In this document: positions 1,656 to 28,156 of the stretch, piece after piece
Position numbering within the stretch: position 1 is the first letter of the stretch
Layout of the letters: the number at the start of each line of letters is the position of its first letter
Virus record (IMG/VR): IMGVR_UViG_3300048029_000116
Coordinates: 1-28,156 of that record
Source: a virus
DNA length: 28,156 nucleotides
Direction: 5' to 3' (one strand)
Translations under genes and position numbers: made by a program
Notes under the pieces: generated by a model
The model's input: only the letters and a program-made list of their open reading frames with translations
Databases searched by the model: none
What the model was told of the DNA's origin: nothing

Positions 1656-1954
1656 TGGGCCAACTCTATGGGCTGGTTTTCTGTGAACGTCATGCGTTCA
1701 TCTTTTGCGGCATCAACATTGACGAAAACATAACCTTCGCCATGATTGCTTCCGCCGACCCAATCGCCATGCCAGCCCATTTTTGCTGCAAAGGCCATTG
1801 CTGCCGCCTTGTGATTGTGTTCGACACGTAGGCTGTAATCCCAATCAATAGTGATTGATTGAGGTGTGCCAGCGTATGACGCAGACTGACGCGCCTTGAT
1901 GCGTGATCCGCGCTTATTGGTCGGGCCGAGGTATTTTGTGATGATCGTTTGCAT
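1652..1954 (-). CDS. Conserved phage protein of unknown function
   Basis: A 100-residue protein beginning MQTIITKYLGPTNKRGSRIK. It carries the features of a short protein family I recognise from proteobacterial phages and plasmids: the opening I.TKYLGPTN.RGSRIKA, a beta strand (SITIDW), then a central helix (NHKAAAMAFAAKMGW) and a closing HGEGYVFV. No enzymatic motif is visible and the function is unknown. The SD is AAAGGA, about seven bases before the ATG, in the leader AAGGATAAGCA shared almost exactly with the gene just upstream. The stop overlaps the start of the 36-residue peptide. Confidence 0.75.
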   Translation of the reverse strand: MQTIITKYLGPTNKRGSRIKARQSASYAGTPQSITIDWDYSLRVEHNHKAAAMAFAAKMGWHGDWVGGSNHGEGYVFVNVDAAKDERMTFTENQPIELAQ

Positions 1955-1972
1955 TTGCTTATCCTTTCCCGT

Positions 1973-2215
1973 TTACAGGTTGGCGGTGTTTACTGCGCGG
2001 ATAACGCCGTGGCGGGTCATCCATGCCGTGTTGTTGATTAGGAAGCGCTCACCATCGTTTTGTGTGACAGTTAAACCCTCATCTTGAGCGGCTTGCGCCA
2101 TTGCGGCGGTGTCGCCGTAGGGCAAATCAAATGCGCCAGATTGAATAAGGTAATAATCAACTATTGCGCCGTGGTTTGCTGCGCGGTGCATTGTTGTGGT
2201 TATGATGTTTTTCAT
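1973..2215 (-). CDS. Small hypothetical protein, first gene of the leftward operon
   Basis: An 80-residue protein starting MKNIITTTMHRAANHGAIVD. The open frame extends 22 codons further upstream, but the ATG at 2215 is chosen because it is preceded by GAAGGATAAGCAC, nearly the same leader as in the next gene. The upstream extension is AT-rich and looks like control DNA. Residues about 18-50 look helical (DYYLIQSGAFD, then AAMAQAAQDEG), and the C terminus (FLINNTAWMTRHGVI) may be a strand-helix pair. No known family is recognised. It would be the first gene transcribed from the divergent control region. Confidence 0.6.
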   Translation of the reverse strand: MKNIITTTMHRAANHGAIVDYYLIQSGAFDLPYGDTAAMAQAAQDEGLTVTQNDGERFLINNTAWMTRHGVIRAVNTANL

Positions 2216-2352
2216 GTGCTTATCCTTCACGATTATTTTATTCAGATATGAATAAAGTACATGAATATTTATATAGAGCAAGAAAAAAATAGAATATTTT
2301 ATTCATAATCGTTAAATAATAGGGCAGACATAACGAATAAAAGGAATAACAA
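2216..2352. promoter_or_regulatory. Divergent AT-rich control region
   Basis: This stretch separates the leftward small-gene operon from the rightward gene at 2353 and is far richer in A/T than the flanking genes. It must hold the leftward promoter, because there is no other upstream space. TATAAA-like elements occur around 2265-2275 on the reverse strand. A rightward promoter is also possible (TAAATAAT-like element near 2313-2322). I cannot fix -35/-10 pairs with confidence. A 7-bp inverted repeat inside it, listed separately, could be an operator. Confidence 0.5.
2237..2256. promoter_or_regulatory. Inverted repeat, candidate operator
   Basis: TTTATTC (2237-2243) and GAATAAA (2250-2256) form a perfect 7-bp inverted repeat around a six-base centre (AGATAT). 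It lies about 20 bases upstream of the leftward gene start, a suitable place for a dimeric repressor to block the leftward promoter. A/T-rich DNA makes chance inverted repeats more likely, so this is a weak call. Confidence 0.35.
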
Positions 2353-2820
2353 ATGGCTAACGAGGTTAAAAACCTAGGTGGACGGCCAAGAGGCAGCGGA
2401 ACAGGCCAACAGATCACAGCGCGGCTGAGAAAAGAGATTTATTCCGCGCTGGACATTACAAAGAAGGCTGGAAAGCCTCTGGATATGCTAATCGCGGATC
2501 AATTACAGCAAGACGCGGCTGGAACTATAAACAAACTCAGTAGGTTATTGCCACAAGAGGTTAAACTTGACGGCGCTGGCAGTGAGTTTGCACTCGCTCT
2601 TGCTGATGTTGCTACCAGGATTCAAGAAGCTAATCGCATAATTGACGCTAAACCCGTACATTTATCTGGTGAAGGTAAAGGCGAACAGGTGCAAGATGCT
2701 GTAATCATTGATGAATCTGTACATAATCTGGAACCAGAGGCGGATATGGTTCCAAAAATCAAGAAAAAATCTGGTCGGCCATCTCGTTTTGCCGCAGAAA
2801 AATCGCAGGATGACGCATGA
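2353..2820 (+). CDS. Probable small terminase subunit / AT-hook DNA-binding protein
   Basis: A 155-residue protein with an AT-hook-like GGRPRGSG at residues 9-16 and a second one (SGRPSRF) near the C terminus, both suited to minor-groove DNA contact. The centre is helical (TARLRKEIYSALDITKKAG, LDMLIADQL, and a helix containing LLPQEVKL). The segment around KLSRLLPQEV resembles the helical part of small terminases and TerS-like proteins, and the next gene is the large terminase, so a role in recognising phage DNA for packaging is likely. It could instead be an unrelated regulator, because 260 non-coding bases and a terminator separate it from terL. Start: ATG at 2353 with AAGGA about seven bases upstream. 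Confidence 0.5.
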   Translation: MANEVKNLGGRPRGSGTGQQITARLRKEIYSALDITKKAGKPLDMLIADQLQQDAAGTINKLSRLLPQEVKLDGAGSEFALALADVATRIQEANRIIDAKPVHLSGEGKGEQVQDAVIIDESVHNLEPEADMVPKIKKKSGRPSRFAAEKSQDDA

Positions 2821-2904
2821 CCCCCCCCGTCACTAAAATGCACGGGGCGCTATATATGTGGATACACCCCACACCAACCGAACACCAATATTCAAATCAG
2901 CATA

Positions 2905-2933
2905 TTGACAGCGGCCCGTATAACTGATATTTG
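2905..2933 (+). promoter_or_regulatory. Possible sigma-70 promoter ahead of terL
   Basis: A perfect consensus -35 TTGACA (2905-2910) is followed after 17 bases by TATTTG (2928-2933), a weak -10. The hexamer fit and spacing are what is seen; promoter activity is inferred. It reads toward the terminator at 3016-3052, about 75 bases from the expected transcription start, and then toward terL. Confidence 0.4.
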
Positions 2934-3015
2934 CATATATAATCACTCGGTTTGTCTCGACTGCTTATCCATCCCTAGCAAACCTTGTGGTGCATTCATT
3001 TATACTTCTCGATTG

Positions 3016-3052
3016 CCCTCGTTAGCCCCCTAGCTAACGGGGGTTATCTTTC
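3016..3052 (+). terminator. Strong hairpin terminator before terL
   Basis: CCCTCGTTAGC (3016-3026) pairs with GCTAACGGGGG (3033-3043) over 11 bp with one T-G wobble and a six-base loop, followed by TTATCTTTCT. The stem is GC-rich at its base and followed by a moderate T tract, as expected for an intrinsic terminator. It stands between the candidate promoter and the large terminase, which suits either an end for the upstream unit or an antitermination-controlled leader. Confidence 0.75.
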
Positions 3053-3079
3053 TACCAACCCCCCCCCTTGGGTTGGCGA

Positions 3080-4504
3080 ATGGAGATAACATCCCGTATG
3101 CCCGCGAAAAATTCACAGCAAACCACTGCTGATATCCTTTTGCAGCTTCACGGTGACCCTGTGTTGTTTGTGCAATCTGTGCTGCAAGCGGAGCCACAGG
3201 GTTGGCAGAAGACAGCTTTAGAGAACATCCGTGACAACGATAGGGTTGCTATCCGCAGCGGTCACGGCGTTGGCAAGACGGCCTTTTTGAGTTGGGTTAT
3301 CCTTTGGTGGGTCACGACGCATTATCCGTGTAAGGTTGCTTGCACGGCGAACTCTGCATCACAGTTGGAGCAGGTGTTATGGCCTGAGATATACAAGTGG
3401 ATGCAGAATATGCCCAAGGGTTTCCAGACTGAACTTGATTTCAAGTCTGACAAGGTTGTGTTGAAGAACGCCCCTGATAGCTTTGTGGTGGCGCGGACAA
3501 GTCGGCGGGAAAATCCTGAGGCATTGCAGGGTTTTCACAGTCCGAACATGTTGTTCATCATCGACGAAGCCTCTGGTGTTCCTGATATTATCTTTGAGGT
3601 TGGCCAGGGTGCGATGAGTACAAAGGGTGCTAAGACTGTTATGGTTGGCAACCCTACGTCTGGCACGGGTTTCTTTGCTGATGCGTTTGACGGCGGTGGT
3701 CGTTGGACGACGCAGACTGTGAGTTGTGAGGATGCGGATTACGTTGATCCAGCGTTTATCGAGGACATGAAGCGCCAGTATGGCGAGGATAGCAACATTT
3801 ATCGGGTGCGGGTATTGGGTTTACCCCCTGAGAGTGATGATGACAGTTTGATACCGCGTCATTTGGTTGAGGCGGCGTGTCAGCGTGAGGTTGACGCTAT
3901 GATGGTTGCGCCTTTGTGGGGGTTAGACCCTGCGAGGTATGGTGATGACAGGACGGCTTTAGCTAAGAGGCGTGGGAATGCGCTGGTAGAGCCTGTCAAG
4001 AGTTGGCGTGGCAAAGATACTATGGAAACAGTTGGTTTGGTACTTGCAGAGTATGAAGCCACGCCGTTCATGGATAGACCGAGTGAAATCTTGGTTGACA
4101 GTATTGGCATTGGGGCAGGGGTTGTTGATCGACTTCGTGAGTTGGGAATGCCCGCCCGTGGTGTGAATGTGGCTGAGAGTCCGGCTTTGGGGACGCGTTA
4201 TCAGAAGTTGCGTGATGAGCTGTGGTTTCGGTGTCGTGAGTGGTTTGAAGCGCGGGATTGTTCTATGCCGGAGCAAGAAGAGTTAATCCATGAGTTGGTG
4301 TCTGCGCGGTTTAGCATTTTGTCTTCGGGTAAGTTTAAGGCTGAGGGTAAGGATCAGATGAAAAAGCGCGGCTTGAAGTCGCCTGACTTGGCTGATGCGT
4401 TTATCTTGACGTTTGGCTCTCAGGCGGTTCGTGCTGCTGGGTCAGTGAATGCCTACGGGTATTCTGGTGATTTGAATTACGGGAATAGTAGCTGGATAGT
4501 GTGA
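3080..4504 (+). CDS. terL: Terminase large subunit
   Basis: The packaging motor ATPase and nuclease. Walker A is GHGVGKT (about residues 61-67), Walker B is LFIIDEA (about 158-164), and the coupling segment VMVGNPTSGTG follows. The C-terminal RNase H-like nuclease shows its acidic residues in GLDPARYGDD, ILVDSIGIG and SPDLADAF. Length (about 474 residues) is normal for TerL. Start choice is uncertain: a TTG at 3068, ATG at 3080 and ATG at 3098 are all in frame. GGAG at 3082-3085 lies 12 bases before the 3098 ATG, and none has an ideal SD. The stop overlaps the following gene (TGATG). Confidence 0.95.
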   Translation: MEITSRMPAKNSQQTTADILLQLHGDPVLFVQSVLQAEPQGWQKTALENIRDNDRVAIRSGHGVGKTAFLSWVILWWVTTHYPCKVACTANSASQLEQVLWPEIYKWMQNMPKGFQTELDFKSDKVVLKNAPDSFVVARTSRRENPEALQGFHSPNMLFIIDEASGVPDIIFEVGQGAMSTKGAKTVMVGNPTSGTGFFADAFDGGGRWTTQTVSCEDADYVDPAFIEDMKRQYGEDSNIYRVRVLGLPPESDDDSLIPRHLVEAACQREVDAMMVAPLWGLDPARYGDDRTALAKRRGNALVEPVKSWRGKDTMETVGLVLAEYEATPFMDRPSEILVDSIGIGAGVVDRLRELGMPARGVNVAESPALGTRYQKLRDELWFRCREWFEARDCSMPEQEELIHELVSARFSILSSGKFKAEGKDQMKKRGLKSPDLADAFILTFGSQAVRAAGSVNAYGYSGDLNYGNSSWIV

Positions 4505-4689
4505 TGTTTACTGCGGTGATACTGGTTTGTGTTCAGCAAGCCTGTTTTGCTGTGGGTGGGCCTGTGACGGCGAGTGTTGAGGCGTGTCGGGCTGATGTTA
4601 GGCAGTATGGGGCGCGTTATGTGCGGTCTGTCTTGCCTGAAGCGGTTATCCTTGATTGGCAGTGTATTCCGTGGGGAAAGGCGACTTAA
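4504..4689 (+). CDS. Small exported Cys-containing phage protein
   Basis: A 61-residue protein starting at the ATG that overlaps the terL stop; a GTG one codon upstream is also possible. The N terminus (MFTAVILVCVQQACFAVGG) is hydrophobic like a short signal peptide or membrane anchor. Two later cysteines, in EACRADVRQYG and DWQCIP, fit a disulfide in the periplasm. The layout of signal-like start, then EAC...A..Y......LP......W.C, recurs in small phage proteins of unknown function next to terminase or portal genes. Its job is not known. Confidence 0.6.
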   Translation: MFTAVILVCVQQACFAVGGPVTASVEACRADVRQYGARYVRSVLPEAVILDWQCIPWGKAT

Positions 4690-4983
4690 ATGGCGAAGGT
4701 TAGCAGTGTTAAGCGGTTGCCGAGCGGTCGCCTGAAGTACAACGGTGAGACTTACCCTGGGTATAACAAGCCTGTGCGGCAGTCTGGTGAGGCTAAGTCT
4801 ATGAGGGTCTTAGCTAAGAAGGGTGACGAAGTTAAGAAAGTCACTTTTGGTGATCCTGATATGCCTATTCGCAGCAGTAACAAGGCGGCTAAGGCCAGCT
4901 ATTGTGCGCGATCTGGTGGGATAAAGGGTAAAGATGACAAGTTTTCCGCGAATTACTGGTCACGTAGAGCGTGGAAGTGTTGA
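4690..4983 (+). CDS. Conserved small basic phage protein (FGDPDM family)
   Basis: A 97-residue lysine/arginine-rich protein with the pattern KKVTFGDPDMPIRSSN, then KASYCARSGG and finally ANYWSRRAWKC. This matches a widespread short family in marine phages (…FGDP.M.I....…R.S..AR......K..A.YWS...W), usually found beside terminase and portal genes. It lacks the histidine of the usual ARHNC segment. It is probably a DNA-associated or assembly-related protein, but no function has been shown to my knowledge. It starts directly after the preceding stop and is followed by three more small basic proteins. Confidence 0.7.
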   Translation: MAKVSSVKRLPSGRLKYNGETYPGYNKPVRQSGEAKSMRVLAKKGDEVKKVTFGDPDMPIRSSNKAAKASYCARSGGIKGKDDKFSANYWSRRAWKC

Positions 4984-4992
4984 GGTGAATTT

Positions 4993-5172
4993 ATGCGATA
5001 TATGAAGATGTATAGTCGGCCAAAACCTAATAAAATGAAGGAAATGGCAGACGCAGTTGATGCGATGGTTGAAGAGGTTAAGCCTGAGAAAAAGACCAGC
5101 AAGCCCCGCCGTGCATCATATAAGCGCCGTATGTCTGGCGTGAAAACGGGGAAGTATTCATCTGATGCCTAA
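4993..5172 (+). CDS. 59-residue basic protein
   Basis: A short gene starting MRYMKMYSRPKPNKMKEMAD, then an acidic helix (AVDAMVEEVKPE), then a strongly basic tail (KPRRASYKRRMSG) ending YSSDA. GAGGTG (4982-4987) overlaps the previous stop and acts as SD five bases before the ATG. The next gene starts inside its last codons (8-base overlap). This head-to-tail coupling and the clean SD make it very likely real. No family is recognised; it belongs to a run of small basic proteins between terL and portal. Confidence 0.7.
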   Translation: MRYMKMYSRPKPNKMKEMADAVDAMVEEVKPEKKTSKPRRASYKRRMSGVKTGKYSSDA

Positions 5173-5332
5173 GAAAGCGCCTGTTCGCAAGAAAGCCCCT
5201 GTTCCTAAAAATAAGGCTTTGTATTCGCGGGTGAAGTCTGAGGCTAAGAAGAAATTTGACGTTTATCCGTCAGCTTATGCGAATGCTTGGTTGGTGCGGG
5301 AATATAAGAAGCGCGGCGGGACGTATGTCTGA
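5165..5332 (+). CDS. Conserved 55-residue basic phage protein
   Basis: Starts MPKKAPVRKKAPVPKNK and continues ALYSRVKSEAKKKFDVYPS, AYANAWLVREYKKRG. The segment Y.RVK.EAK.KFDVYPSAYAN.WLV.EYK.RGG is a well-conserved short module in marine and alphaproteobacterial phages, placed near the portal gene. The Lys-Pro-Ala-Val N-terminal tail is a basic linker. It overlaps the preceding gene by eight bases and the next by the A of TGATG. Function unknown; its abundance of basic residues suggests contact with DNA or the acidic surface of the capsid. Confidence 0.75.
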   Translation: MPKKAPVRKKAPVPKNKALYSRVKSEAKKKFDVYPSAYANAWLVREYKKRGGTYV

Positions 5333-5535
5333 TGGCGTATCGTGGTGGTTTAACGAAATGGTTTGCTGAGGATTGGCGTGACGTCAAAACGGGTAAGCCA
5401 TGTGGTCGCAGCGGGAAAAAAAACAAAGACAGACCGTATCCAGCGTGTCGCCCCGCCAGCAAGGCGAGAACGGCGAAAGCTAAAAAGGCTGCGAAGCGGA
5501 AAACAAGTTCAACCCGCATAAGCTGGGACGTTTAG
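5332..5535 (+). CDS. Conserved small phage protein (WFAEDW / CGR family)
   Basis: A 67-residue protein starting MAYRGGLTKWFAEDWRDVKT, then GKPCGRSGKK and RPYPACRPASKA, ending in a Lys/Arg/Ala-rich tail. The pattern WF.EDW.D...GK.CGR......YP.C.PA.KA is common in marine phages and I believe it corresponds to DUF5872-type proteins, without certainty about the name. The two cysteines could bind metal together with other residues. The gene is coupled to the previous one (TGATG) and followed by an AGGAG that serves the 17-residue peptide. Confidence 0.75.
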   Translation: MAYRGGLTKWFAEDWRDVKTGKPCGRSGKKNKDRPYPACRPASKARTAKAKKAAKRKTSSTRISWDV

Positions 5536-5545
5536 GAGATTTATC

Positions 5546-5599
5546 ATGCCAGGATATCACAAAGGTAAGAAAAAAGGTAAGGGCGGTAAGAAGAAGTAA
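5546..5599 (+). CDS. 17-residue polybasic peptide
   Basis: Encodes MPGYHKGKKKGKGGKKK. AGGAG at 5534-5538 lies seven bases before the ATG, a better SD than most genes here have. The stop (TAA) overlaps the portal start as TAATG. Ten of the 17 residues are basic (nine lysines and a histidine). It may be a real DNA- or RNA-binding mini-protein, or a leader whose translation delivers ribosomes to the portal start, which has no SD of its own. Similar tiny Lys/Gly-rich frames before portal genes are something I recall from marine phages, but I cannot verify that here. Confidence 0.6.
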   Translation: MPGYHKGKKKGKGGKKK

Positions 5600-7593
5600 T
5601 GGCACAGATGGATGAACTGCGCTTCCGCAGCATATTGCAGCATGAGATACAGAGCGCGGTCAACTATTATGACTCAGAGTTTAGTGCTGATCGCTCGGAG
5701 GTTTTGGACTATTACCTAGGCCAGCCTTTTGGGAATGAGGTGCCAAACAGGTCGCAGGTTGTTGCGACTGAGGTTTCTGACACGATTGAGTATATTATGC
5801 CGTCGTTGATGAAAATGTTTGCGTCATCTGGCGATTTTGTGCGTTTTCAGCCGCGTGGGCCAGAGGATGTTAAGGCTGCTGAACAAGCGACTGACTTGGT
5901 GAATTTTGCGATTAACGAGGATAATCGCGGGTTTACCGTGCTGCACAACTGGTTCAAGGATGCCTTGCTGTTTAAGCAGGGGGCTGTGAAGTTTTATTGG
6001 GATGAAACTGAGACAGTTGTTAATGAAACATATGAGAACTTAACTGAGGACGAAGTTACTTTGCTGTTGGATGATCCAGCGGTTGAGGTTGTGTCTCAGG
6101 AAGTTATCGAAATGGGCGTTGTGGCTGCGGATGGCCAAGAGTTGCCTATGGATGTGCGTTATAATGTTGAGGTCAATGTTAAGAAGCGCAGCGGCAAAGT
6201 TAAGATTGATAACATCCCGCCTGAAGAGATGATTTTCTCGCGTCGTGCGACGTCTTTAGAAGAGTGTGGGTTTATCGCGCATAGAACACAGGTTCGTGCG
6301 GGTGACTTGATTGAGCAAGGTTATGACGAAGAGACTGTCATGTCCTATGCGGGTTATGATGACCTAGATGACGAAGGTGAGCGTCAGGCACGTTTCGAAG
6401 AGTTGGAGAGCGGTGATCGCTTTGAAAGCCATGATCCGTCTATGCGCGAGGTCTTGGTGACAGAGGCGTACATACGTGCTGACTTTGACGGAGATAATAT
6501 CCCTGAGTTACGTCGTGTTGTTGCTTTGGGTGATGGGGTGGAGATTTTAGAGAACGAGCCGTTTGACCACGTGCCGTTTGCTGTTTTATCACCAATTTTG
6601 ATGCCACACAGAATGGTTGGCCGTTCTGTTGCTGAAATGGTTATGGACTTGCAGATGATTAAGTCCACGATCATGCGTCAAATGCTGGATAACTTGTATT
6701 TGACCAATAACAGCCGCGTTGCTGCTGTTGAGGGTCAAGTTAATTTAGATGACTTATTGTCATCCCGCCCTGGTGGTGTTGTGCGTACCCGTGCGCCTGG
6801 GATGGTACAGCCTTTGGCCGTGCCTCAGATCGGGTCTACTGCGTTTGCTATGCTTGAGTATGTAGATCAGGTCAGAGATCAACGCACAGGCTTTTCTAAG
6901 GCGTCTATGGGGCTTGATCCGTCTACTTTGCAGTCTACCACTGCCAGCGCGGTTAATGCGACCATACAGGGCGCACAGTTAAAGATAGAGATGATTGCCC
7001 GCGTGTTTGCTGAAACGGGTTGCCGTGAGTTGGCGCGTGGCGTTTTAGCGTTGTTGCAAAAGCACCAAGACGAAGAGCGTGTCGTGCGTATTCGTGGTGA
7101 ATTTGTCAGCATTGATCCTCGCGCTTGGGTAAACGGCTTTGACATGTCGATTGATGTTGGCTTGGGCAATGGCCGTGAAGACGAAAAAATGTCTATGTTG
7201 CTGCAAATCTTGGGCAAGCAAGAACAGTTGTTGCAGCAGTTAGGGCCGAATAACCCTGTTGTTAAGCCGTCGCAGTATGTAAACACGTTGAAACGCATTG
7301 CTGAAATGGCTGGATTTAAGGATACGTCGCAGTTCTTTAACTCTGGTGAAGAGATTGACCAAGCGTTGGCGCAGGGTCAAAGCGAAGAGCAAGGCAACTC
7401 GGCAGAAATGCAGAAGCTGCAAGCTGAATTGCAGTTGAAGCGTGAGAAAATGCAAGCTGAACTGGCGCTTGAGCGCGAGAAAATGCAGATGGAAATCGAA
7501 CTACGTCGCCAGGAGTTGCAAGCTGAATTGCAGCTACGTCAGCAAAAGTTGGCTTACGGCGGTAACGTATCGGACAACTTACCAAGAGCATGA
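5599..7593 (+). CDS. Portal protein (SU10-like)
   Basis: A 664-residue portal that forms the twelve-subunit ring at one capsid vertex, through which DNA enters and leaves. The N-terminal segment (SEVLDYYLGQPFGNEVPNRS, then SDTIEYIMPSLMKMF) and the middle (HRMVGRSVAEMVMDLQMIKS, then TTASAVNATIQGAQ) fit the SU10/Bcep22-like portal family found in podoviruses. Residues 608-651 consist of four 11-residue repeats (consensus QAEL.L.REKM), predicting a long continuous helix or coiled coil at the C terminus. The start overlaps the stop of the 17-residue peptide. The stop overlaps the next start (ATGA). Confidence 0.9.
   Translation: MAQMDELRFRSILQHEIQSAVNYYDSEFSADRSEVLDYYLGQPFGNEVPNRSQVVATEVSDTIEYIMPSLMKMFASSGDFVRFQPRGPEDVKAAEQATDLVNFAINEDNRGFTVLHNWFKDALLFKQGAVKFYWDETETVVNETYENLTEDEVTLLLDDPAVEVVSQEVIEMGVVAADGQELPMDVRYNVEVNVKKRSGKVKIDNIPPEEMIFSRRATSLEECGFIAHRTQVRAGDLIEQGYDEETVMSYAGYDDLDDEGERQARFEELESGDRFESHDPSMREVLVTEAYIRADFDGDNIPELRRVVALGDGVEILENEPFDHVPFAVLSPILMPHRMVGRSVAEMVMDLQMIKSTIMRQMLDNLYLTNNSRVAAVEGQVNLDDLLSSRPGGVVRTRAPGMVQPLAVPQIGSTAFAMLEYVDQVRDQRTGFSKASMGLDPSTLQSTTASAVNATIQGAQLKIEMIARVFAETGCRELARGVLALLQKHQDEERVVRIRGEFVSIDPRAWVNGFDMSIDVGLGNGREDEKMSMLLQILGKQEQLLQQLGPNNPVVKPSQYVNTLKRIAEMAGFKDTSQFFNSGEEIDQALAQGQSEEQGNSAEMQKLQAELQLKREKMQAELALEREKMQMEIELRRQELQAELQLRQQKLAYGGNVSDNLPRA
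7420..7551 (+). repeat. Four hendecad repeats in the portal C terminus
   Basis: Residues 608-618, 619-629, 630-640 and 641-651 of the portal are QAELQLKREKM, QAELALEREKM, QMEIELRRQEL and QAELQLRQQKL. The DNA period is 33 bases with partial conservation (CAAGCTGAA recurs in three units). An 11-residue period is a hendecad, suited to a long, nearly straight helical bundle or barrel. Confidence 0.9.
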
Positions 7594-7847
7594 CAGATTT
7601 AATTAACGAACAAGATCGCGGGGCGAAAGCTGCTGCGATTTTACGTGAGCCTTTAATCCAAGAGGCGTTTGAGGAATTGCGGAAAACGTATGTCGATGGT
7701 TGGTCACAGAGTGACCCCGCAGACACCGAGTTTCGTGAGCAATGTTTCCACTTGCTGAAAGCGTTGGAAGCGTTTGAGGGACACTTTGAAAGCGTCGTGA
7801 CGACGGGGAAAATGGCCTCTCAGCAAATGGAAGCATTGCGAACTTAA
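7590..7847 (+). CDS. Small conserved head-associated protein
   Basis: An 85-residue, almost entirely helical protein. It has the pattern AAAILREPLIQEAFEELRK, then DTEFREQCFHLLKALEAFEG and a closing SVVTTGKMASQ. I recognise this pattern from short proteins encoded right after portal in several phage groups (…A..IL.....EAF..L……D...RE.....L..L......L..V..TGKMA…). Position between portal and scaffold points to a head-assembly role, but none is proven. ATGA overlap with the portal stop shows coupled translation. Confidence 0.7.
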   Translation: MTDLINEQDRGAKAAAILREPLIQEAFEELRKTYVDGWSQSDPADTEFREQCFHLLKALEAFEGHFESVVTTGKMASQQMEALRT

Positions 7848-7871
7848 AATCAACTATATTGGAGATTTAAT

Positions 7872-8816
7872 ATGTCTGGTACTCCACAGGAATCCAGCCT
7901 ATCGCAGCATGATGCTGTCAATCTACTTTTGAACACCGAAGCCCCAGAAATGGCAAGCGAGGATGATCAAGAGGTTACTGCCGAAGCTGATGCAGAGGCA
8001 CCCGAAGAGGAAACTTACGAAGCTGAGGCCGTCGATGACCAAGCCGAAGTAGAAGAGGTTGAGGCTGCGGAGGACGATGATGTCTACGAAGAGGTAGAAT
8101 ATCACCGTGTAAAAGTTGATGGGCAAGACTACGATGTCACTTATGACGACTTAGTTAAAGGCTATCAGCTTGAGCAAACTGCTTATAAGCGGCTTGAAGC
8201 TGCAACCAAGGAAAGACAATCCTTAGACGCAGAGAAAGCCGAAACTGAGCAAGTTCGTACTCAGTATGAACAGGCTTTGAATTTAATGGCTCAACAATTA
8301 CAGGCGGCAGACATGCCGAAAGACCAAGCATATTGGGATTCCCTGTATGAGAATGATCCACTTGAATACGTCAAGCAACGTGACACAGAGCGTGACAATC
8401 AGACAAGATTTCAAGCTGTGCAGCAAGAGCAACTGCGCTTGAAGCAAGAGTATCTTGTGAAAGAACAGGCAAAGCTAATTGAGAAAATCCCAGAGTGGAA
8501 GGATCAAGAGGTCGAGCAACGCGAAAAAGCTGCATTGGTGCAATATGCCCGCGCAAACGGGTGGACTGATGCTGAATTGGCTGAAACAGCCGACAGTCGT
8601 TACGTCGAGTTAATGCGTAAAGCCTATCTTTACGACAACTTGCAGTCGGGCAAACCGATAGCCAAGAAGAAAGTAAAGACGGCTCCTAAGATGGTGAAAA
8701 GTGGTCAACCAAAGAGCAAAGCCGACTCTGCTACAGACCGAAAGCGTAAGGCTTTTGACAATTTGAGGAAAAAGGGCAGCAGAAAAGCTGCTGTTGAATA
8801 CCTCTTAACTCGTTAA
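7872..8816 (+). CDS. Capsid scaffold protein
   Basis: A 314-residue protein just before the major capsid gene, the usual place for a scaffold. The first 80 residues are extremely acidic (runs such as EAPEEETYEAEAVDDQAEVE). The middle is a long charged helix (from about residue 105) with many Gln/Glu/Lys residues, and the C terminus is strongly basic (KPIAKKKVKTAPK, then KADSATDRKRKAF). Acidic start, coiled-coil centre and basic capsid-binding tail are typical of internal scaffolds that direct shell assembly and then leave. TTGGAG (7859-7864) is the SD. No protease motif is seen, so it is not a scaffold-protease fusion. Confidence 0.8.
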   Translation: MSGTPQESSLSQHDAVNLLLNTEAPEMASEDDQEVTAEADAEAPEEETYEAEAVDDQAEVEEVEAAEDDDVYEEVEYHRVKVDGQDYDVTYDDLVKGYQLEQTAYKRLEAATKERQSLDAEKAETEQVRTQYEQALNLMAQQLQAADMPKDQAYWDSLYENDPLEYVKQRDTERDNQTRFQAVQQEQLRLKQEYLVKEQAKLIEKIPEWKDQEVEQREKAALVQYARANGWTDAELAETADSRYVELMRKAYLYDNLQSGKPIAKKKVKTAPKMVKSGQPKSKADSATDRKRKAFDNLRKKGSRKAAVEYLLTR

Positions 8817-8830
8817 CTTAGGAGGCCATT

Positions 8831-9775
8831 ATGGCTACATATACAAGTTCGACGGCTGTTGGTGAACGTGAAGACCTTTCAGACGTCATCTATAGAATCG
8901 ACCCAGACGAAACGCCCCTAGTGAGCAATTCGCAAAAGGAAACTACAAAAGGTATTTTCCATGAATGGCAAGTTCAAGAATTGGCTGCCGCGTCTGCGAC
9001 CAACTATGCGAACGAAGGTGCGGATTATTCGTACACTAACCCAACTGCAACAGTACGCCACGGCAACTATCACCAGATCAGTGTCCAAGCGGCGTCAGTG
9101 TCAAACACACTGGATGTTGTAGACAAAGCGGGCCGCGACAAAGAAACGGCAATGGTTAAGGTACTTAAGGGTATCGAGCAACGCCGTGACATCGAAAAGT
9201 CGTTGTTTGCAAACGAAGCGCGTTCAGGTTCAGACCCACGTAAGGCTGCAAAGCTAATCAACTGGATCACCAACGGTGACAAACCATCTGATATGGCGTT
9301 TGCAACAGGCGACGGTTCTGATGCTGCTGACCTAACAGGAACAGCACGTGACCTTACTTTGGCGCAAATTGATGCAGCTATGCTTGCTGCTTATAATGAC
9401 GGTGGTCAGCCTAACATGTTGCTGATGTCACCAGCGAATAAACAGAACTTCTCTGACCTGTCATCAGGTTCAGTTGCGACAGCGCAGTTGCAGTATTCTG
9501 CGCCACGCGACATCGCAATCGTTGGTTCTGTTTCATTGTATTTGTCTGACTTCGGTGAACTAGCTGTTACGATTGATCGTCAGGCAAATGCTTCAGAGAT
9601 TTATCTCATTGACACAGATTACGTGTGCATCGGTTCCCTCCCTGGCCGTATGTTTAGCGTATCTGATGTGGCATCAACGGGCGATGCTACTAAATTTGCG
9701 ATAGTCTCTGAATGGACGCTTATCGTCAAAGCACCAAAAGCACACGCTGCGGTGATCGGGCTTTCAGGCTCATAA
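8831..9775 (+). CDS. Major capsid protein (DUF5309 / SU10-like)
   Basis: A 314-residue shell protein. Its opening (EREDLSDVIYRIDPDETPLV, FHEWQVQELA, then NYANEGADY and HGNYHQISVQAASVSNT) and the helix with EQRRDIEKSLFAN follow the DUF5309 major capsid family (HK97 fold), typified by phage SU10. The start has a near-perfect SD (AGGAGG, 8820-8825). It follows the scaffold by 14 bases and is followed by a hairpin terminator, a common way to make capsid protein more abundant than downstream products. No accessory Ig-like domain is seen at the C terminus. Confidence 0.92.
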   Translation: MATYTSSTAVGEREDLSDVIYRIDPDETPLVSNSQKETTKGIFHEWQVQELAAASATNYANEGADYSYTNPTATVRHGNYHQISVQAASVSNTLDVVDKAGRDKETAMVKVLKGIEQRRDIEKSLFANEARSGSDPRKAAKLINWITNGDKPSDMAFATGDGSDAADLTGTARDLTLAQIDAAMLAAYNDGGQPNMLLMSPANKQNFSDLSSGSVATAQLQYSAPRDIAIVGSVSLYLSDFGELAVTIDRQANASEIYLIDTDYVCIGSLPGRMFSVSDVASTGDATKFAIVSEWTLIVKAPKAHAAVIGLSGS

Positions 9776-26855: not shown

Positions 26856-27202
26856 TCGGTCAAATCATAGGAAGCCTTGGCGGTCTTGCCACGGCATGGG
26901 TAGATGGAAAAACAGCAGTCCAAAAAGCGAACGCTGAAATCAAACTTAAACAGGCAACTGGTGAGATTGATTGGGAACTTGAAGCTATACGTTCTGCACA
27001 GAACTCGTGGAAGGATGAACTTTGGACAATTGTGTTCGTGCTTATTCTTGCTGCTAATTTTGTTCCTAGCTTACAAGACACCATGGCGCAAGGATTTGCC
27101 AACCTTGAGACTACCCCCCTGTGGGTGCAATGGGGCATGTATGCGTCGATTGCCGCCTCGTTTGGAATAAGAACCATGAGAGGCTTAGGAGGCAAGAAAT
27201 GA
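26852..27202 (+). CDS. Holin-like protein (3TM/GTA-holin-type)
   Basis: A 116-residue protein starting at TTG (26852); GAGGGAG at 26837-26843 is a strong SD in the right place. The N-terminal part is a helix (AVQKANAEIKLKQATGEIDW, ELEAIRSAQNSW) and the C-terminal half has two hydrophobic segments (ELWTIVFVLILAANFVPSL and WVQWGMYASIAASFGIRT). It resembles the 3TM holin family of phages and gene-transfer agents and marine phage proteins beside endolysins, so it probably controls lysis with the 86-residue holin. The end overlaps the endolysin start (ATGA). Confidence 0.7.
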   Translation: MIGQIIGSLGGLATAWVDGKTAVQKANAEIKLKQATGEIDWELEAIRSAQNSWKDELWTIVFVLILAANFVPSLQDTMAQGFANLETTPLWVQWGMYASIAASFGIRTMRGLGGKK

Positions 27203-27837
27203 GTGAAGGACTACGTAATCTGCAAGCTAAGTGTGGCTGCACACCAGACGGAAATTTTGGCCCGAATACGGCACGTGGCATAATGAAGTATTACGACATG
27301 TCACCAGAGAGGGCTGCGCACTTTTTGGGGCAAGTCGTGATTGAGAGTGCTAACTTTCAAGCGGTTGAGGAAAACCTTAACTACTCGGTGGACGCGGTAA
27401 TGCGTGTTTTCAGGCGCTACTTTGACAGCCATGTTGAAGCAAAGCCATACAGCCGCAACCCACGTGCATTAGCAAACTACGTCTACATGGACAAAAACCG
27501 CACCAGCAAGTCCCAACTTGGTAACGTCAATCCTGGTGATGGTTACGCATTTCGTGGTCGCGGATTTATCCAAGTTACAGGTCGGGCAAACGTAGAGAAG
27601 TTTGCGAAGGATAAAGGCTTGCCAGAGGTGGTTGATAACCCAGACATCATTGCGACTGAGTATCCAATGGAGTCGGCTTTGTGGTACTTTGATCGAACAC
27701 GCGGGCTGTGGAAGTTGTGTGACGGCAAGGTCACTAAGCAAAGCTGCAAGGACATCACTAAGAAGGTCAATGGCGGTTATAACCACTTACATGAGCGCAC
27801 CGAGGAAACCTTCAAGATTTACGGTTGGCTAAAATAA
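27199..27837 (+). CDS. GH19-type endolysin
   Basis: A 212-residue muralytic enzyme that cuts peptidoglycan glycan strands at the end of infection. The start at 27199 is chosen over ones upstream because GGAGG stands seven bases before it and its ATGA overlaps the holin-like gene. GH19 features are visible: HFLGQVVIESANFQAVEENL with likely catalytic Glu49 and Glu58, then NVNPGDGYAFRGRGFIQVTG, which is the chitinase/lysozyme core motif, and a substrate-groove segment YPMESALWYFD. No signal peptide or cell-wall binding domain is visible, so release depends on the holins. Followed by a strong terminator. Confidence 0.9.
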   Translation: MSEGLRNLQAKCGCTPDGNFGPNTARGIMKYYDMSPERAAHFLGQVVIESANFQAVEENLNYSVDAVMRVFRRYFDSHVEAKPYSRNPRALANYVYMDKNRTSKSQLGNVNPGDGYAFRGRGFIQVTGRANVEKFAKDKGLPEVVDNPDIIATEYPMESALWYFDRTRGLWKLCDGKVTKQSCKDITKKVNGGYNHLHERTEETFKIYGWLK

Positions 27838-27866
27838 AAAACCCCGCTGTAGTAGCAGCGGGGTTT
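27836..27866 (+). terminator. Terminator after the endolysin
   Basis: CCCCGCTG (27842-27849) and CAGCGGGG (27856-27863) form a perfect 8-bp stem with a six-base loop (TAGTAG), flanked by A6 and TTT, so it can work in both directions. It closes the late transcription unit. Confidence 0.9.
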
Positions 27867-27983
27867 CCATATCCAACGAACCGAGGAGACCAATCCCCGG
27901 GCTGTATCTAAAACGCACCCAAACCGTAGAAGCGTGTTTGAGGCAAAACTACCAAAGCGGTCAAAGTCCGTCAATCGTTGTAA

Positions 27984-28043
27984 TGGTTCCAACATGGTTC
28001 CAGATTCGATAAATCGTTTTGGAACCAAATAGCCTTGGTTCCA
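27984..28043. repeat. Four TGGTTCCA motifs, candidate integrase arm-type sites
   Basis: TGGTTCCA occurs on the plus strand at 27984-27991, 27995-28002 and 28036-28043, and inverted (TGGAACCA) at 28020-28027. The first two are 11 bp apart, about one helical turn, so an integrase could bind side by side. Four copies of an 8-mer in 60 bp is not expected by chance. The location 60-120 bp from the tRNA core matches arm-type sites of tyrosine integrases. That they bind an integrase is inferred. Confidence 0.6.
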
Positions 28044-28055
28044 CGTATTCCTTAG

Positions 28056-28074
28056 ATATTCATGCGGTGAATAT
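28056..28074. promoter_or_regulatory. Inverted repeat next to the att region
   Basis: ATATTCA (28056-28062) and TGAATAT (28068-28074) form a perfect 7-bp inverted repeat around TGCGG. It is 30 bases from the tRNA segment. It could be a binding site for an excisionase or a host bending protein, or an operator for a gene outside the window. Confidence 0.4.
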
Positions 28075-28103
28075 TTCATAGCCCTTGTTTATATGGCTAT
28101 ATT

Positions 28104-28148
28104 TGGAGCGGGCGATGAGATTCGAACTCACGACATTTACCTTGGCAA
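28104..28148 (-). tRNA. 3' half of tRNA-Gly (GCC), probable att core
   Basis: On the reverse strand these 45 bases read as the anticodon loop TTGCCAA (28148-28142), 3' anticodon stem GGTAA, variable bases ATGTC, T arm GTGAG-TTCGAAT-CTCAT, acceptor strand CGCCCGC and the TCCA tail. The anticodon is GCC (glycine). The sequence beyond the loop, TTATT, would pair with GGTAA only through two adjacent U-G wobbles instead of the expected TTACC, so tRNA identity seems to end at the loop. The 5' half is outside the window. It is either a partial tRNA gene or, more likely, the copied 3' end used as an attachment core. The T-arm and acceptor sequence fits alphaproteobacterial tRNA-Gly. Confidence 0.7.
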
Positions 28149-28156
28149 AATAATAT

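Follow-up and report, generated by a model that had tools for sequence, protein, structure and literature searches.

Arm-type sites, tRNA-derived cores and heterobivalent integrases are textbook components of phage integration systems. The described systems closest to the locus reported here are: the lambda-type attP (lambda Int, PDB 1z1b and 5j0n), which likewise combines a core with separate arm-type sites and whose integrase likewise consists of a small N-terminal β-sheet domain, a core-binding domain and a catalytic tyrosine domain; the attP of the Cluster K1 mycobacteriophages CrimD, Anaya, Adephagia and Angelica, in which, as here, the 3' end of an RNA gene forms a core upstream of int, and for which covariation of arm sites and integrase N-terminus has been described, the arm-type sites differing between relatives in register with N-terminal substitutions (at positions 17 and 19; Pope et al. 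2011, PMC3203893); the attP of the T7-like cyanophages S-TIP37 and P-SSP7, which is again part of a host tRNA gene (tRNA-Leu) in a marine phage with int linked to it, these phages following a lytic cycle without stable lysogens (PMC8776855); and phage C72C1 (OQ984150.1), whose terminase large subunit is the closest in the phage collection to that of our phage (54.7% identity).

The locus departs from each of these. Unlike lambda attP, its core is the 3' half of a tRNA-Gly, and the array of sites seen lies to the P side, the integrase side having one copy at most; the identity of the integrase to lambda Int is low, at 15-16% by structural alignment. In Cluster K1 the core is a tmRNA and is flanked by two pairs of 11-bp sites (PMC3203893), whereas here arm sites and N-terminal domain have diverged much further, over a stretch bounded by the endolysin end and about int codon 70-90. 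The cyanophages differ in host, tRNA and phage type (PMC8776855), and a CI-like repressor module is present here. The annotated genes of C72C1 name no integrase.

The window, by which we mean the whole stretch of 28,156 bases analyzed, is an IMG/VR virus record with genes for terminase, portal, major head protein and endolysin. Its right end is very probably the attP of a temperate tailed phage of marine Rhodobacteraceae with a genome of about 36 kb, the TGGTTCCA copies forming a P arm that is gripped by the phage's own integrase; the identity of the core to a host tRNA, an integrase linked to it in a sister contig and the conserved geometry of the sites all point in this direction. The features of the region are:

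27199 to 27837, plus strand: endolysin (PHROG 181, E 4e-49), bordering the P arm, as it does in relatives L081-L092.
27837 to 27868, placed on the minus strand by a consensus scan, the palindrome reading on either strand: terminator-like hairpin directly after the endolysin stop.
27984 to 27991, plus strand: putative integrase arm-type site 1 (TGGTTCCA), offset -121 from the core, extra in comparison with other groups.
27995 to 28002, plus strand: putative arm-type site 2 (TGGTTCCA), offset -110, starting the conserved +/-/+ triplet.
28020 to 28027, minus strand: putative arm-type site 3 (TGGTTCCA, inverted), 25 bp from site 2.
28036 to 28043, plus strand: putative arm-type site 4 (TGGTTCCA), 16 bp from site 3.
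28104 to 28148, minus strand: attP core with the crossover segment, 45 bp without a difference from the 3' half of the Rhodobacteraceae tRNA-Gly(GCC).
28149 to 28156, no strand assigned: first 8 bp of the P' arm, where the contig breaks.

Read on the minus strand, the core spans the encoded CCA, the 3' acceptor strand, the T arm, the variable region and the 3' strand of the anticodon stem, followed by the anticodon loop up to its 5' end. GTDB genomes hold 62 matches to it over at least 44 exact bases, in 60 contig stretches, and 58 of the 62 are complete tRNA-Gly(GCC) genes by ARAGORN; the titles of the contigs with the exact 44-bp core are mostly Rhodobacteraceae or Alphaproteobacteria, and by blastn the core is identical at 45 of 45 positions at several host and phage loci. 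A mark of the lambda-type attP, identity of its core to a host attB that is usually a tRNA 3' end, is thus seen in 58 complete tRNA-Gly genes (44 bp exact), and these genes supply what a first-pass annotation of the window had predicted for Rhodobacterales: genomes of Rhodobacteraceae contain full tRNA-Gly genes with precisely this 3' half. Next to the core, hosts have GGTAACGCTC (with the 5' anticodon strand TTACC) and the window has AATAATAT; the break from TTACC to TTATT noted in the annotation falls at this same position when set against the host genes. A complete tRNA running on into host DNA, which the annotation had named as speaking against its reading, is not what the region shows: the sequence leaves the tRNA at TTATT, and no complete tRNA was found in the 28,156-base window.

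Several variants and other occurrences of this core were observed. The attP cores of L081, L082, L083 and L092 have GAAGAGATTCGAACTCTCG in place of GATGAGATTCGAACTCACG, a paired T-stem change, and look as if taken from another host tRNA-Gly allele. The core of L088 (1702-1745) shows divergence at either end (AAAGAGAGCG...CGTAACTA), perhaps through decay or through adjustment to another tRNA. In L047 a half-core lies 2.2 kb from a complete tRNA-Gly (2130 and 4348) and the flank sequence is matched in the viral contig L005, a case of the same tRNA-Gly being used by a different type of element. More distant integrases (33-46% identity) adjoin the same core in L011, L018 and L004; no TGGTNNC array was found left of the core in the sequence covered for these three.

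What lies beyond the window is supplied by a sister contig, L009 (92-93% identical), which spans both window ends and provides the missing ~8 kb: window positions 26864-28156 correspond to L009 579-1870 (92.1% over 1,299 bp), and positions 2-1137 to L009 9935-11070 (93.4% over 1,136 bp). Judged by these overlaps, the genome when closed would measure about 36 kb. The order in L009 from the left is: endolysin, repeats, core, 197 bp, tyrosine integrase, a CI-like repressor on the opposite strand, a Cro-like HTH protein, a PD-(D/E)XK protein, exonuclease, annealing protein, cytosine methylase, primase/helicase and the window start. As no host DNA lies within this join, the region is an attP rather than an attL or attR. 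The window hence presents the attP of a free genome, closed or concatemeric, and is a fragment of an uncultured temperate phage; the first-pass annotation, which had considered a free or circularized genome, largely holds. Its statement that the window lacks an integrase gene stands, that of the window's own phage being deduced from the 92-93% identical sister. It had looked for an integrase within 2 kb past the core and facing it: in L009 a tyrosine integrase gene does lie 198 bp away (2060-3184, its start about 197-198 bp right of the core), but it reads away from the core.

The L009 integrase matches the Pfam Phage_integrase model (2.4e-22), and R221, K253, H319, R322, H345 and Y356 are invariant in the integrase alignment; a tyrosine integrase with its catalytic residues is accordingly linked to the core in L009 and the relatives, outside the window itself. 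The Pfam arm-binding model gave no match on the L009 integrase. In an AlphaFold2 model, of which the catalytic part is of low confidence, residues 1-60 form a β-sheet and a helix (pLDDT about 90 over residues 1-50), and the best Foldseek matches of the model are full-length lambda Int on DNA (1z1b, 5j0n). The predicted fold thus argues for an N-terminal arm-binding domain. Queried with the integrase, the phage collection gave distant matches only, of about 27% identity or less among those listed and mostly from Streptococcus satellite phages; no close cultured relative of the attP region was found, and an integrase profile together with three DNA patterns added zero new contigs to the family. 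Assemblies break near the core in the window (8 bp past it) and in the relative L008 (19 bp past it), and the host contigs L028 and L060 begin at most 8 bp away. The 45-bp stretch, being common to phages and host tRNA genes, probably breaks assemblies, and the early end of the window would then be due to further copies of the core elsewhere in the sample.

A trace of integration is seen in the single-cell genome of the Rhodobacteraceae isolate AH-326-E22 (G403). Here the 196 bp after a complete tRNA-Gly are 92% identical to phage L087 and cover the core, three TGGTCAC sites at the same offsets and the last part of the endolysin gene. At a distance of 7.6 kb lies a second half-core adjoining normal host DNA, the same DNA that is found directly after tRNA-Gly in the related genome G404. 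We read this locus as an integration scar with an attL and an attR-like end, the phage body having been replaced by other genes; it shows that the tRNA-Gly site has been used by this phage type. Host attL/attR junctions were hence found for the related TGGTCACG group and not for the window's own lineage. The 7.6-kb islet between the phage-type attL and the second half-core (L204, G403:C14:8500-20500, at 1811-9460) has three large ORFs and no integrase of this attP family, and could represent either the remains of a prophage together with cargo or an element mobilized in trans. An integrase search for intact prophages of this family found none close in 397 Rhodobacteraceae genomes, and there was none close in 16 genomes of the G403 genus.

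The four TGGTTCCA copies (+,+,-,+), 61-121 bp left of the core, and the tRNA-Gly-like stretch next to them lie exactly where the first-pass annotation had placed them. The whole window has six copies of TGGTTCCA as against 0.89 expected, and none of 100 shuffles gave six; an 8-mer present at least four times in the 266 bp from endolysin stop to core arose in 30 of 20,000 dinucleotide shuffles. The remaining two copies, at 2729 and 2747, are within an ORF and were not seen in terminase-region relatives; we take them as chance. On the integrase side, where the window reaches 8 bp past the core, L009 has a single copy (2003-2010) and the relatives have none. Other repeats were also observed: TGAATA-type repeats flank the core in several relatives, including on the integrase side, and a conserved GGGTAAA...TTTACCC palindrome lies directly upstream of int (both in L009:1862-2060 and relatives). 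These are possible accessory or regulatory sites, or sites of a further protein.

Twelve relatives (L081-L092) share the endolysin and attP region, and int follows the core in every one whose contig reaches that far (L090 ends before the integrase). All 12 have three sites in the order + - + with spacings of 25 and 16-17 bp, and in most of them no base of the core has changed. The window and L009 have the triplet about 12 bp nearer the core, with a fourth copy taking the outer position. The motif falls into classes in which all copies are altered at once, namely TGGTTCCA, TGGTTCCG, TGGTCCCG or TGGTCACG (TGGTCAC(G)), the sole exception observed being the last L009 copy, which is TGGTTCCG. The P arms of L089 and L083 are 88% identical and show the same T-to-C change at all three sites. 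In a nucleotide profile of L086 against L089, divergence is confined to three stretches, with identity at 61% in the P arm, 70% in P' and 52% over int codons 1-68; outside them the values are 87% and 81-93%, and the core is unchanged (100%).

Apart from the core, the region thus has repeated sites in four copies, whose geometry is conserved and which change in concert with the integrase N-terminus. The N-terminal 68 residues, taken as this N-terminus, are 91-100% identical inside the TGGTCAC group and 38-45% identical to those of the TGGTTCCG/TGGTCCCG phages; over the remainder of the integrase the two sets are 76-85% identical. When the distant L009 is set aside, the integrase N-terminus tracks motif distance most closely (r 0.82, permutation p 0.010), the remainder of the integrase does so more weakly (r 0.59, p 0.019), and six other proteins or domains tested show no correlation with it; these p values are indicative only, since there are four motif classes, and hence few independent events, and the phages are related. 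With L009 included, the two integrase parts are not separated (N-terminus r 0.64, remainder r 0.76). Fixed differences between L089 and L083/L088 at positions 17, 37, 58 and 67 of the N-terminal domain, those at 17 and 37 being R/K and K/R, are no more than a lead, three sequences being compared; residues 17 and 37 are candidates for setting the T/C preference. This sorting of the motif with the integrase, strongest for the N-terminal domain when L009 is set aside, marks the repeats as putative arm-type sites, and the TGGTTCCA copies are most likely docking sites of the phage integrase. That the integrase binds TGGTTCCA is something we infer, now with comparative evidence behind it.

Short repeats in the neighborhood of attP or int are targets of excisionases and repressors as well, and the TGGTTCCA copies of a genuine attP might serve another phage protein of this sort, which we regard as rather improbable. 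An excisionase was not identified here and could be an unrecognized small ORF. As for the CI-like repressor, its HTH domains are 94-100% identical between the TGGTCAC and TGGTTCCG/TGGTCCCG groups, where complete, and 100% identical in L083, L086 and L089, which have three different motifs; the motif is also not present around CI/Cro in L009. Once L009 is set aside, the motif differences follow neither CI, nor the Cro-like HTH protein, nor the other linked proteins tested, and both CI and the Cro-like protein were rejected as motif readers.

The inverted pair of sites could instead be an RNA hairpin, a terminator or attenuator after the endolysin operon, with the motif changes as compensatory base pairs: TGGAACCAAATAGCCTTGGTTCCA in the window is flagged as terminator-like, and both stem strands change together. 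However, the third, direct copy shows the same change with its distance kept, L089 and L086 have no T-run after the hairpin, and a stronger terminator-like hairpin already stands at 27837-27868; as this reading also leaves the covariation with the integrase N-terminus unexplained, we consider it very unlikely. Half tRNA genes are common debris, and the contig ends at most 8 bp from the core, as might suit a tRNA remnant that has no activity and is present by chance, or a junction between prophage and host, rather than a functional attP. This is hardly credible in view of the relatives with linked integrases that have the same layout, the base-for-base conservation of the core in most of them and the attL scar in a host; L009, too, contradicts it unless that contig is chimeric.

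In the functional attP that we favor, integration into tRNA-Gly(GCC) would replace the 3' half of the host gene by the 45-bp core and, as the core supplies this half, the host tRNA would stay intact. The N-terminal arm-binding domain of the phage's tyrosine integrase, the gene for which would sit directly right of the window end, would grip the TGGTTCCA copies, with the catalytic domain of the enzyme cutting the core at the same time, in the manner of lambda. The concerted change of the sites along with the integrase N-terminus, and the attL scar in the host of a related group, are consistent with such a process at the sequence level; in the window's own phage, actual binding and integration would proceed in the same way, presumably with involvement of IHF/Xis. 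More speculatively, and with considerable doubt on our part, the arm sites and the arm-binding domain may together make up a single specificity cassette that can be exchanged while the tRNA core between them stays invariant; phages competing for the same tRNA-Gly site would then control their integration separately and be unable to act on one another's prophages.

With this attP family, uncultured marine phages provide a further natural case, and a more strongly diverged one, of arm sites covarying with the integrase N-terminus; it is not a new kind of system. It ties an uncultured group of marine phages to Rhodobacteraceae hosts by sequence and indicates that this group is temperate. It also offers a natural series of matched variants of arm sites and integrase domain on one nearly unchanged core, so that the code by which arm-binding domains recognize their sites can be tested directly.
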